This document shows, piece after piece, positions 22,892 to 27,222 of a stretch of 36,913 bases of DNA; position 1 is the stretch's first letter; each line of letters begins with the position of its first letter. The notes beneath the pieces are model-generated. The model worked only from the letters and a program-made list of their open reading frames with translations. It was not told the origin of the DNA and did no database searches. The DNA is from Thermodesulfobacteriota bacterium. Its GTDB lineage: Bacteria; Desulfobacterota_D; UBA1144; Nemesobacterales; CSP1-2. The stretch is from positions 1 through 36,913 of the forward strand of contig DASWID010000143.1 of NCBI GenBank assembly GCA_036397855.1, written 5' to 3'. The position numbers and the translations under genes are program-made.

Positions 22892-23719
22892 TTAATCTAT
22901 TTCAGGCAATTTCGCAATTATACCTTCTGAGTTTCTTTGCCTATTGTAATCAAACGAAGCTTCCAGTATCAGCCAGACGGCCAGTGCCAGTATGATAGCC
23001 GATAGCACCAATAACAAGGGATTATAAGCAAATTCCTTAAAGTTCAGAATCATAGATCCAGTAGTCATGAGGATCAGGAGCACCATAGGAATTAACGTAT
23101 AAATAACAGGGCTTCCTGTTTTCCAAAGGAAGATTGTTGCAGCAAGAAGGGTCAGACCCCGACGAGCTGGTTGGTAGCCCCAAAGAGGGGCCAGAGAAAA
23201 AATCCGCCAGAACCGGGCCCTTGACCAGGGGCTTCTGCAAGTATTGCCAATAAAAGACCCGGTACTACCGCCAAAGCCGCACCCACATATCTGCTTTCTA
23301 AGATTCTTACGTTATAAGCAGATCCTAGTTCGCTTATTATCAACCTCTGTATTCTAGCTGCGGTATCAAGTGAGGTAGCGGCAAAGCTAATGATTAGCAC
23401 GCTTATCAAGGTGCTGCCTATCAGGTCAGGAATCTTCAACGCCTGTAAGAAACTCTAAGCTCCAATAACGAAGTTACTAAGACCACCGCTGCTTGCAGCT
23501 TGCCAGGAATCGTAGTGCTCCAGCTATAGAGGCGAAGTGGTGACCAAAGAGCACGTGTTTATTTGTCGGCACAAAGCCCAAGTCGTCTTTGAGCTCATGA
23601 GATGGGGTTAATTCATCATCTGAAACTTGAAACACCCTTCTTGAGATATATCTCGAATAGAAGCGATATCCAAAAAAATATAGTATCAGCACCACTACAG
23701 CAACTACTGCCGAGTTCAT
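22892..23719 (-). pseudogene. cstA: Carbon-starvation / peptide transporter CstA, internally deleted and frameshifted
   Basis: Three fragments in three frames on the minus strand. 23719-23477 is the CstA N-terminus (first helix, then RFYSRYISRRVFQVSDDELTPSH and KHVLFGHHFASIAGA), which then leaves the family right after IAGA. 23439-23152 is a C-terminal piece (AATSLDTAARIQRLIISELG, LFGATNQL). From about 23155 to 22892 a third frame continues LTLLAATIFLWKTGSPVIYT to the end. Intact CstA proteins exceed 500 residues; here most of the central membrane core is missing. Located 31 bases after the response-regulator stop with its own ribosome site (GGAG), clearly once the third gene of that operon. 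Confidence 0.88.
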
Positions 23720-23749: not shown

Positions 23750-25129
23750 TTATTCGAGGAGTCGCATTTTTTTCATTCTATACCTGAGGACTTCTCTGGT
23801 GACTCCTAGCTTTTCGGCGGTCCTCGTCTGATTCCAATCATTCATTGTCAACGCTTCCAGTATAACCTTTTCCTCTATCTTTGAAAGTGACATATCATTT
23901 AAAGACATCTCAACTACTATTTTTTCCTCCGCTTCGTCAAATTTCACATCGCTCTCAATTTGCCCCTCAAGCTTTATATAATTTGGATTCAGGACAACAC
24001 CATCACTGAGAAGAACCGCTCTCTCTATCGTACTTCTAAGCTCCCTAACATTACCTGGCCATGCGTAGTTTAAGAATTCCCCTCTTACCCCTTCAGGCAC
24101 TACCTTAATATTTTTATGAAGTTCATTATTAAAATATTCTACAAAATAGTCCGCGAGCATTGGGATATCGTCTCTCCTCGATCTTAATGGTGGCATCTCA
24201 AAACTTATAACATTTAGACGGTGATACAAATCTTCCCTGAAAAGCTTTTTGCTCACAAGTTCTTTTAGAGAACGGTTAGTGGCAGCAATTATCCTCACAT
24301 CTACACTAATATCCCTCGTACCTCCGATTCTCCTGAATGTTCGTTCCTCAATTACCTTTACAAGCTTTGCCTGAGTTGACAAGCTCATATCTGCGATTTC
24401 ATCGAGGAAAATCGTTCCCCCATCAGTGAGCTCAAAAATGCCCTTTTTCATTTTCTTCGCATCGGTAAATGCTCCAGCTTCGTGTCCGAAAAGTTCTGTT
24501 TCGAGGAGTGTATCTGGTATGGCTGCACAATTTAATTCCAATATAGGTTTTTGTGCTCTCACTCCATTAAAATGTAGTACCCTCGCGGCAAGACCCTTTC
24601 CCGTTCCACTTTCTCCCGTAATAAGAATCATTCGAGGGTCCGTATTGACTAATTTTAATAACAACTGGGTAATCTCTTTAATCGCGTCGCTCTCGCCCAC
24701 AAAGGAATTCAATTCATACTTCAACTGCTCCCTCATAGTCACAGCGCTCAGATTGCTTTTTAGTACGTGAGCACTTAGAGCATTACGAACCATTATTCTT
24801 AGCTTATCAACTGAAAAGGGCTTTTCTATAAAATCATATGCGCCCTTTTTAATGGCCGCCACCGCAACTTCAATATTGCCATGCGCTGTCATCATTATAG
24901 TGTTAGGTACTGGCTCAAGACCGGTAAGATAGCCAAGAACCTCAAGACCATCCACATCGGGAAGTCTTAGGTCTAGCAGAACCACATCCGGATTTTCTCT
25001 TATCGCAATCCCAATCCCATCTTTTCCAGTATAGGCAGTAACAACTTCGTGCCCTTCTTGAGACAGAGCCTTTTCTAGCTGTTTGCACAATAGCCTTTCG
25101 TCATCGATTATTAAAACAAGATCGGACAA
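23750..25129 (-). CDS. Sigma-54-dependent response regulator, NtrC family
   Basis: 459 residues. Receiver domain (1-120) with phospho-acceptor Asp53, acidic pair D9/D10, Thr81 and Lys103. AAA+ domain (about 142-375): Walker A GESGTGKG (172-179), L1 loop GAFTDA (219-224) instead of the commoner GAFTGA, Walker B FLDEIAD (241-247), and NVRELRSTIERA. C-terminal Fis-type HTH DWNQTRTAEKLGVTREVLRYRMKKM (431-455). It should activate a sigma-54 promoter when phosphorylated by the kinase encoded just upstream (77-base gap). A candidate target promoter and operators are at 26632-26760. Confidence 0.94.
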   Translation of the reverse strand: MSDLVLIIDDERLLCKQLEKALSQEGHEVVTAYTGKDGIGIAIRENPDVVLLDLRLPDVDGLEVLGYLTGLEPVPNTIMMTAHGNIEVAVAAIKKGAYDFIEKPFSVDKLRIMVRNALSAHVLKSNLSAVTMREQLKYELNSFVGESDAIKEITQLLLKLVNTDPRMILITGESGTGKGLAARVLHFNGVRAQKPILELNCAAIPDTLLETELFGHEAGAFTDAKKMKKGIFELTDGGTIFLDEIADMSLSTQAKLVKVIEERTFRRIGGTRDISVDVRIIAATNRSLKELVSKKLFREDLYHRLNVISFEMPPLRSRRDDIPMLADYFVEYFNNELHKNIKVVPEGVRGEFLNYAWPGNVRELRSTIERAVLLSDGVVLNPNYIKLEGQIESDVKFDEAEEKIVVEMSLNDMSLSKIEEKVILEALTMNDWNQTRTAEKLGVTREVLRYRMKKMRLLE

Positions 25130-25205: not shown

Positions 25206-26546
25206 TCAAGCCTTTAAGTCTGATGGAATCAATATAGTAAAGGTCGTTCCCTCTTCTTTGTCACTTGAAACCCGGATCTTCCCCTTATGGATTTCAACTA
25301 TATTATTAGTAATTGAAAGTCCAAGTCCTGTCCCCATCTTTTTTGTTGAGTAATACGGGCGAAAAATTTTATCCATATCTTCCTCGGAAATACCTGATCC
25401 CGTGTCAGACACGCTTATCCTTATGTAGCCATTGGATGATGCTGTTTCAATGGTCAATTTCGCTGGGAACCCATTAATCGCCTCAACCCCGTTTATTAAT
25501 AGGTTCAGTACTACCTGCTCTATCTGTTCGTAATCTACGAAGAAAAGCTCACCGCACTCTAGCCTTTTCTCAATGACTATGCTCTTCTCCCGGGCCTTGA
25601 AACTAACCAGGCTGAGTGCCCTTTCCACAATCTCATTTGGAGAGCATTCAATGAGATTCAACTCGCTGGGACGCCCAAGCTTTAGCAGTTCCCTTATTAT
25701 GCGATCCAACCTGTCTATTTCCTTTAAAATATCAGCGCAAGTTTGTTTATGTTCAGGGTTTTTTGTATCATCCCTCATTATCTCGAGTGCTATTGCAATC
25801 CCAGAAAGCGGGTTTCTGACCTCGTGTGCTATTCCTGTAGCAAGCTCGCCGATAGTAGCAAGCTTCTCAGATTTTATGAGCTCCTCTTGCTTTTCCCTTA
25901 TCTCCTTAGTCGATACTTCTATCCTCTCCTCTAGAACTTCATTAAATTTTACGATAGATTGGAGTAGCTTTAGATTTTCCTCGTTTTTCTTTTCAAGCTC
26001 ATTTTTGTTCTGTTCAATGTTCATGAGCATGTTGTTAAACGCGTTAATGAGAGCGGAGATTTCAACACTTCCCATCAGACTTTTTACCCGGTAAGAATAA
26101 TCCCCTGAAGCAACGGCCTTCGCAGCATTGACCAGGAGAAATATCGGCCTTGTTATTATCCTAGGAACAATCAACGTAAGAAGGCCTCCAAATAGCAAGG
26201 CTATTCCCACCATCGTAAAGATATTGATGTAAGCCAGCTTTAGCTGATCATCTGAAATTTTTATTGCGTCCATCAACATTTGCTTTGCCAGATATCCCTG
26301 GGAGCTATCTTGATCATAAGCGAAAAGGCTCGACAGGGTTTTGTATCGTCCTTCGATATTTGAAGCCGCCTTACTGAGTTTGTATATACTAAATATTGAA
26401 AATCCCCCTATCAGCAACATGAGAATCAACATCGTTGCGAAACCTATCGTTATCTGTCTGTTTAACTTCAACGCAGACATTCTATCCCTGATATGCCTAG
26501 AAAGACCCAAACGGACCTTGGGCTTTACAAAATCCTTAAATTTCAT
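25206..26546 (-). CDS. Membrane sensor histidine kinase
   Basis: 446 residues. Two membrane helices (about 33-54 and 106-126) border a short external sensor of only about 50 residues, followed by HAMP (126-178), a coiled coil (175-230), HisKA with phospho-His241 in GIAHEVRNPLSG, and the ATPase domain with N box (N348/N352), G1 DTGSGI (381-386) and G2 GTGLGL (405-410). Cognate to the NtrC-type regulator downstream. The small sensor fits detection through the membrane or a partner rather than large-ligand binding. Transcribed divergently from the small exported peptide gene. Confidence 0.94.
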   Translation of the reverse strand: MKFKDFVKPKVRLGLSRHIRDRMSALKLNRQITIGFATMLILMLLIGGFSIFSIYKLSKAASNIEGRYKTLSSLFAYDQDSSQGYLAKQMLMDAIKISDDQLKLAYINIFTMVGIALLFGGLLTLIVPRIITRPIFLLVNAAKAVASGDYSYRVKSLMGSVEISALINAFNNMLMNIEQNKNELEKKNEENLKLLQSIVKFNEVLEERIEVSTKEIREKQEELIKSEKLATIGELATGIAHEVRNPLSGIAIALEIMRDDTKNPEHKQTCADILKEIDRLDRIIRELLKLGRPSELNLIECSPNEIVERALSLVSFKAREKSIVIEKRLECGELFFVDYEQIEQVVLNLLINGVEAINGFPAKLTIETASSNGYIRISVSDTGSGISEEDMDKIFRPYYSTKKMGTGLGLSITNNIVEIHKGKIRVSSDKEEGTTFTILIPSDLKA

Positions 26547-26631
26547 GACGCAATTCCTGTGCCATCTTTAATAGTGAATATATTAAACAATATTTCCAAT
26601 TTACCTAATAAATTATAGACCTCTAAAAAGA

Positions 26632-26674
26632 ACTGTGTAACTTTACACAGTAAAGACTGTGTACTTTCCCACAA
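26632..26674 (+). promoter_or_regulatory. Tandem operator-like sites, candidate NtrC-type enhancer
   Basis: Site 1 (26632-26651): ACTGTGTAAC followed by TTTACACAGT, a 20-base palindrome with one mismatch. Site 2 (from 26656): ACTGTGTACTTTCCCACA, a weaker copy. Centres are about 80-110 bases upstream of the sigma-54 promoter at 26744, the usual place for enhancer sites of sigma-54 activators, and also about 100 bases upstream of the kinase start on the other strand. Confidence 0.65.
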
Positions 26675-26743
26675 TTGTTAAGATAAATCTATATTTTAAC
26701 ACGTATCCGTCAGAAACGAATAAAAATATTTAGTAAAGTGGAT

Positions 26744-26760
26744 TTGGCATTATGTTTGCA
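26744..26760 (+). promoter_or_regulatory. Sigma-54 promoter (-24/-12)
   Basis: TTGGCAT (26744-26750) and TTTGCA (26755-26760): the GG and GC dinucleotides are separated by exactly 10 bases, as required. Close match to TGGCAC-N5-TTGCA. It points to the exported peptide gene at 26832. Confidence 0.75.
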
Positions 26761-26831
26761 CTCATAAATTTCAAGATTCCTAAAAAAGGCTTTCATCAGG
26801 ATTCCCTCGGGACCTAGGAGGTGAATAGTAC

Positions 26832-26999
26832 ATGAGATTTTGGATGCTGATACTGGGCATTGCGATGGTTTCTGTCTTTAGCGATCTAAGTAGTGCCATT
26901 TCAAAATATGGAACTACAATCGCTGCAGCTCAAGAGACTGAACCTGCTTCTACTCCTACTCCTACACCAGCTCCTGAAACGGAAAGTTATCTTAGATAA
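26832..26999 (+). CDS. Small exported peptide, sigma-54 promoter candidate target
   Basis: 55 residues from ATG at 26832, with TAGGAGGTG upstream (26816-26824). N-terminal hydrophobic signal (MRFWMLILGIAMVSVFSDLSSA), then a short Thr/Pro-rich tail with an alternating TPTPTPAPE stretch. No family recognised. Oddity: the frame stops at 26997-26999, but the frame that includes ATA at 26996 continues ITGVEKAEAEVIGTGQNKAK and stops at 27071-27073, inside the stem of the terminator. That makes the longer reading (about 80 residues) look like the original 3' end, with one base changed near 26990. Faces away from the kinase operon and is probably its regulatory target. Confidence 0.6.
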   Translation: MRFWMLILGIAMVSVFSDLSSAISKYGTTIAAAQETEPASTPTPTPAPETESYLR

Positions 27000-27068
27000 C
27001 TGGAGTAGAAAAAGCCGAAGCTGAAGTCATCGGAACGGGGCAAAACAAAGCTAAGGCAAAATTTAAAA

Positions 27069-27101
27069 AATAAGAGGGAATACAATAAACTCCCTCTTAT
27101 T
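27069..27101 (+). terminator. Rho-independent terminator (bidirectional)
   Basis: AATAAGAGGGA and TCCCTCTTATT form a perfect 11-bp stem around an 11-base loop, followed by TTAG on the plus strand and preceded by an A-run (T-run on the minus strand). Ends the small peptide transcript and could also stop the convergent 27223 gene. Confidence 0.85.
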
Positions 27102-27222
27102 TTAGCCAACTTTATCGCTCCCATGGAATATAATGCGCTGCAATACTCGCAAACTGAGAATTATTCTAACTCAATTAAATCTTATTTTTGTAAACAGAAA
27201 CCGATTAATACTTTAGGACTTG

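Follow-up and report, generated by a model that had tools for sequence, protein, structure and literature searches.

What does the intergenic region at 26.5-27.1 kb of this window (the whole 36,913-nt stretch of Thermodesulfobacteriota DNA that was analysed) control, and which regulator acts on it? The region separates a histidine kinase and an NtrC-type regulator from a divergent short open reading frame, and the earlier note had read it as a complete sigma-54 control unit for an exported peptide. The elements that it named (two operators, a -24/-12 promoter, a ribosome site and a 55-codon ORF) were all found in place. Operator 1 (ACTGTGTAACTTTACACAGT, 26632-26651) is a palindrome with a TGTG-N8-CACA core at 26634-26649, and the tandem arrangement to which it belongs occurs in all seven genomes of the family examined; operator 2 (ACTGTGTACTTTCCCACAAT, 26656-26675) is a less perfect palindrome. 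The two cores lie 24 bp apart from start to start, giving the array TGTG-N8-CACA-N8-TGTG-N8-CACA in the window, and this 24-bp register is kept in relatives. On the right, 71 bp from the operator block, a plus-strand sigma-54 element (TGGCATTATGTTTGCA, 26745-26760) faces the peptide ORF with exact GG-N10-GC spacing and 10/12 consensus positions, which makes it near-consensus. We propose that the region is very probably a divergent control region belonging to an NtrC-type two-component system and, at the same time, one node of its regulon.

The earlier note had overlooked a second sigma-54 site (TGGCACAGGAATTGCG, 26564-26549, minus strand) that faces the kinase from 69 bp beyond the operator block and, at 11/12 positions, outscores its peptide-facing counterpart. 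This site ends 2 bases ahead of the listed kinase ATG, so that a transcript started from it would begin inside the listed ORF, and for this reason the true kinase start may be Met-23, which is preceded by its own AGGGA. Also missed was a minus-strand sigma-70-like promoter (GTTACA-18-TATAAT, 26612-26641, 10/12) that overlaps operator 1 and faces the kinase; it was identified by consensus match only, with four such matches found against 2.3 expected in shuffled sequence, and it could provide basal kinase expression. The kinase itself (25206-26546, minus strand) has two apparent membrane segments flanking a short external loop, followed by HAMP, HisKA and HATPase_c domains. The regulator (23750-25129, minus strand) carries the receiver, AAA+ sigma-54 domain with a GAFTGA-type loop and Fis helix-turn-helix of an NtrC-type protein, and its sigma-54 contact loop reads GAFTDA rather than GAFTGA, as it does in close orthologues, with GSFTDA in more distant ones. 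GAFTDA is among the substitutions that a Desulfovibrio vulgaris study lists as compatible with activation (PMC4641369).

The operator was then considered genome-wide, as the earlier note had suggested. The tandem pattern alone was used, because the single-operator pattern at two mismatches gave 41 strand matches and its reversed control 44. Searched by operator sequence with at most one mismatch and with no promoter required, the tandem operator gave 58 strand matches in the seven genomes of the same family (f1) versus one for the reversed pattern, and none in 35 genomes from other families of the order and class. In a sister family (f3) the bare pattern stood little above its reversed control (11 versus 6 strand matches); the sites there, one in each of six genomes, owe their support instead to the promoters and targets that accompany them. 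With strands collapsed, 39 tandem sites were obtained, 33 in f1 (spread over all seven genomes) and 6 in f3. Every one of the 39 has a sigma-54 site matching at least 9/12 positions within 30-100 bp on one side, compared with 2.0% of A+T-matched control positions. Operator-promoter distances fall at 39, 50, 61-64, 69-75, 81-86 and 95-96 bp, in steps of ~11 bp; the periodicity is strongest at ~11.25-11.5 bp and none of 5000 permutations was as strong, a result indicating helical phasing that was obtained with near-identical pairs of one genome (G002) removed in f1 and other paralogous and orthologous sites retained. The operator-promoter arrangement is thus far beyond chance. The source genome encodes rpoN, the absence of which would have told against the unit, and together with the GG-N10-GC element and the conserved, promoter-phased upstream activator sites this places the promoters among those regulated by sigma-54 and an NtrC-type activator.

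That the adjacent regulator binds these operators is argued for by their position. Operators adjoin the orthologous kinase-regulator genes in all six f1 genomes in which the region is assembled (G000, G001, G002, G003, G004 and G006; the contig of G005 ends there, which puts it outside the comparison), although the first half-site is degenerate at the G002 locus. A kinase-facing sigma-54 site is present at all six loci, and an away-facing one at five, G004 being the exception. A close orthologue of the regulator (E <1e-130) was found in 12 of the 13 genomes with tandem sites, a co-occurrence that is confounded by descent, and its recognition helix is nearly unchanged across f1 and f3, both of which have sites. 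Ownership of the operator by some other NtrC-type regulator of the genome could be imagined from the 30 sigma-54 activator-like candidates that a first look returned and from G025, which has a site with no regulator orthologue at the cut-off used. We consider this improbable, since the operators sit beside the adjacent regulator's own operon at six of six loci, with divergent sigma-54 sites at five of them, and since sites occur almost only where this regulator occurs. Assignment of the control unit to the adjacent regulator is therefore strongly supported by the six loci and by the phased recurrence. At the f3 kinase loci (L008, L009, L012 and others) the kinase is divergent from a lipoprotein-like coiled-coil gene, mostly without tandem operators, and autoregulation therefore seems, from these sequences, to be specific to f1.

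The right-hand product is less uniform. In the window, a very strong Shine-Dalgarno sequence at normal spacing (AGGAGGTGA, 26816-26824, plus strand) precedes the 55-codon ORF (26832-26999, plus strand), whose product has a signal-like N-terminus, an Ala-rich cleavage-like site and an acidic Thr/Pro-rich tail, and is probably a secreted peptide. Downstream lies a terminator-like hairpin with a 15-bp stem (27067-27103, fold z -6.1), which the earlier note had missed; we list it on the plus strand, 3' of the peptide; its stem is near-symmetric, and the terminator scan assigned it to the minus strand. No Pfam or NCBIfam match was found for the 55-residue peptide and no convincing homologue either, the best outside matches reaching E ~0.005. 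One of these (G033 C198, E 0.005) was set aside as a relative, since it lacks a proper start codon and any obvious sigma-54 site. The best look-alike within the regulon is a 53-residue peptide (G002 C25, E 0.006) that has operators and a sigma-54 site, and the N-terminus and acidic Thr/Pro-rich tail of the window peptide resemble those of regulon peptides L114 and L111.

The earlier note had suggested checking whether the peptide is conserved beside orthologous kinases, and it is not. The G004 locus, with 75% kinase identity, has neither the right-facing promoter nor the peptide; its right-hand neighbour is the same gene as in the window (65% identity), at an operator-to-gene distance of ~250 bp versus ~590 bp. 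Elsewhere the right-hand side holds an 81-aa ORF followed by a DPBB protein (G001), a ~115-aa secreted protein (G002) or other genes (G003 and G006). The switch is thus conserved, and the cargo on its right-hand side changes. What stands of the dedicated exported peptide is thus a well-placed ORF with similar secreted peptides in the regulon, and what does not stand is its conservation or any significant membership in the peptide family described below; we regard a peptide at this locus as plausible and lineage-specific.

Two other accounts of the rightward product bear on this reading. The layout recalls zraP-zraSR, in which ZraR activates sigma-54 promoters that diverge from one another and ZraSR is repressed by ZraP (PMC4987338), and the kinase's short external sensor loop and the signal-like start of the ORF would both suit a dedicated periplasmic partner that represses or tunes the kinase. 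Yet the peptide occurs at no relative's orthologous locus, the loop is conserved in relatives including genomes that have no such peptide, and the peptide contains no His or Cys with which to hold metal, so that we think such a partnership quite unlikely; the feedback on the kinase sensor envisaged in the earlier note is unsupported. A larger, though still minority, probability attaches to a rightward transcript that acts as RNA or derives from a decaying gene, the 55-codon ORF being the remnant of a one-base indel. An open stretch in another frame (ending in TGVEKAEAEVIGTGQNKAKAKFKK*) was read from 26998 to 27072 on the plus strand, just short of where the terminator would end the transcript, and an indel, or else an error of assembly, may have truncated the peptide; the tail of ~70 nt compares with ~20 nt in related peptide genes, two further transcripts of the regulon lack an ORF, and at the orthologous place in G003 the sole ORF has 17 codons and lies within a hairpin. 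The very strong, normally spaced ribosome site and the resemblance of both ends of the peptide to L114 and L111 speak against a remnant, and a translated, probably exported peptide remains our preferred reading.

The targets of the remaining sites give the regulon its character. In the source genome (G000), the tandem site on C49 precedes a gene like those for UDP-sugar decarboxylases/epimerases, followed by a fused glycosidase-glycosyltransferase, and of the remaining two sites, the one on C78 stands before a transcript without an ORF and the one on C85 before an acidic, secreted peptide of 83 aa. Targets in relatives include GT2 glycosyltransferases, an aminotransferase followed by a GT2, LysM and DPBB proteins, a C39-like peptidase, TPR lipoproteins, a sigma-70-family factor, ~110-aa secreted proteins and short secreted peptides. 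By this predicted content the regulon is a cell-surface programme; we infer a matrix role. A second recurring product (L110, L111, L112, L113 and L123) comprises secreted proteins that share a 'GEVTxI..VKDExGK' segment and are mostly ~95-120 aa long; one of these proteins has a sub-threshold CusF-like match.

Each of the six f3 sites lies ahead of a secreted acidic peptide that carries GE(M/I)PGGEM-type repeats, and in one case the end of the contig cuts the peptide short. The source genome's C85 peptide groups with this PGGEM family (L105, L133-L138 and L203-L214), whose members are secreted acidic peptides of 75-113 aa and for which we found no existing name. In a reverse test, PGGEM genes were found by protein profile first and their upstream regions were inspected afterwards. 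In each of the 12 genes parsed, a sigma-54 site lies between -72 and -89 and one or more operators lie between -172 and -213; several of these genes are the earlier f3 and C85 sites, and the new ones come from G029, G041, G008, G027, G037 and G013. The window peptide was also tried as a PGGEM member and rejected, as it ranked fourth of the 307 window ORFs at E 1.7 and was missed by the profile search even though it was in the seed.

Two target transcripts may act as RNA. Tandem operators and a sigma-54 promoter with no ORF downstream were found at G000:C78:3942-3981 (L104) and at G004:C53:1403-1442 (L129), and the two loci have in common an exact 21-nt C-rich stretch, TCCATCCTATCCTCTCCACCT, that sits between the promoter and operators and a strong GC-rich hairpin (fold z ~-4). 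Neither ORF-less transcript had an Rfam match above the gathering score. The shared motif is complementary to the start regions of three related G004 genes (L194, L196 and L197). These features are suggestive of a sigma-54-dependent sRNA whose C-rich segment (CCUAUCCUCUCCACC) would pair with gene start regions. Other near copies of the motif in G004 were discounted as further sRNAs: they are not sigma-54 transcripts, and three of them are the complementary start regions of the gene family.

Several known systems resemble parts of this one. LuxO-Qrr and GlrR-GlmY are NtrC-type two-component regulators with sigma-54 sRNAs among their targets. A candidate sRNA is likewise among the targets here, although in contrast to those cases the RNA is predicted only and has no Rfam match. 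The GlmY/GlrR case is also treated in PMC4987338, which describes ZraP-ZraSR of E. coli and Salmonella as a kinase and an NtrC-type regulator whose genes diverge from that of a small exported protein, with one regulator acting at divergent sigma-54 promoters. The window shares that layout of a small ORF divergent from a kinase-regulator pair, but the divergent gene differs in relatives, the peptide is not ZraP-like and is not conserved at the locus, and the regulon is much wider. PrsK-PrsR, of PEP-CTERM/exosortase systems, governs a sigma-54 regulon of exported surface proteins tied to exopolysaccharide, and its activator motif of 17 nt ends in TTTACA, is sometimes repeated and lies 32-92 nt before the -24/-12 site (PMC1569441). 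Here the likeness is one of content, both being sigma-54 regulons of surface genes. The pair studied here belongs to neither system, because the scores fall well below the curated NCBIfam cut-offs (kinase 199.7 versus 479 bits for ZraS; regulator 335.5 versus 760 for ZraR and 364.3 versus 502.6 for the PrsR model TIGR02915), PrsK is not among the kinase matches listed, and no exosortase (PF09721) was matched in any of the seven f1 genomes. In D. vulgaris, cell exterior is the largest target group of the sigma-54 regulons and two regulators concern exopolysaccharide; the part of that work available showed neither a matching operator nor a regulon of small peptides (PMC4641369).

In the mechanism that we propose, the kinase would sense an envelope or matrix signal and phosphorylate the regulator, a dimer of which would occupy each operator, 24 bp apart. 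By DNA looping, the regulator would then activate sigma-54 RNA polymerase at the helically phased promoters on both sides. Firing to the left would transcribe the kinase-regulator operon itself, and thus amount to autoregulation; firing to the right would yield a short transcript that encodes the 55-aa, probably exported peptide and stops at the terminator. The same module elsewhere in the genome would drive polysaccharide enzymes together with a small, acidic, secreted peptide and what is probably an sRNA, and therefore the programme that the system turns on is most likely one of the cell surface or matrix. A more specific reading, which we offer as tentative but quite possible, is an exosortase-independent surface/matrix programme, in a phylum that has been little studied, in which one sigma-54 two-component system combines polysaccharide enzymes with PGGEM peptides as a new family of small, acidic, repeat-bearing secreted products, with shorter lineage-specific peptides such as the one in the window, and with an sRNA that pairs with ribosome sites through its C-rich segment.

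The sigma-54 regulon is well supported, and no description of it, of the TGTG-N8-CACA tandem operator or of the PGGEM family was found in the literature searched. It supplies a predicted regulator together with its operator, a promoter rule and a set of targets for mostly metagenome-derived bacteria with almost no known regulation, and it links small secreted peptides, which gene finders easily skip, to the control of surface polysaccharide. The operator and promoter rule can be used to discover such peptides and sRNAs directly, and PrsR-like regulon content without exosortase bears on the evolution of such surface programmes.

Two further features of the window were recorded. A cstA remnant (22892-23719, minus strand) consists of separate ORFs that match positions 1-67 and 434-522 of the 560-position CstA model, the middle of which is missing. 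Between 29000 and 34000 the G+C content climbs from ~0.40 to 0.59 across genes for a nickel-responsive/cyclase fusion, a GH130 phosphorylase and a GT4-like glycosyltransferase, a shift that may reflect either horizontal transfer or a chimeric contig.
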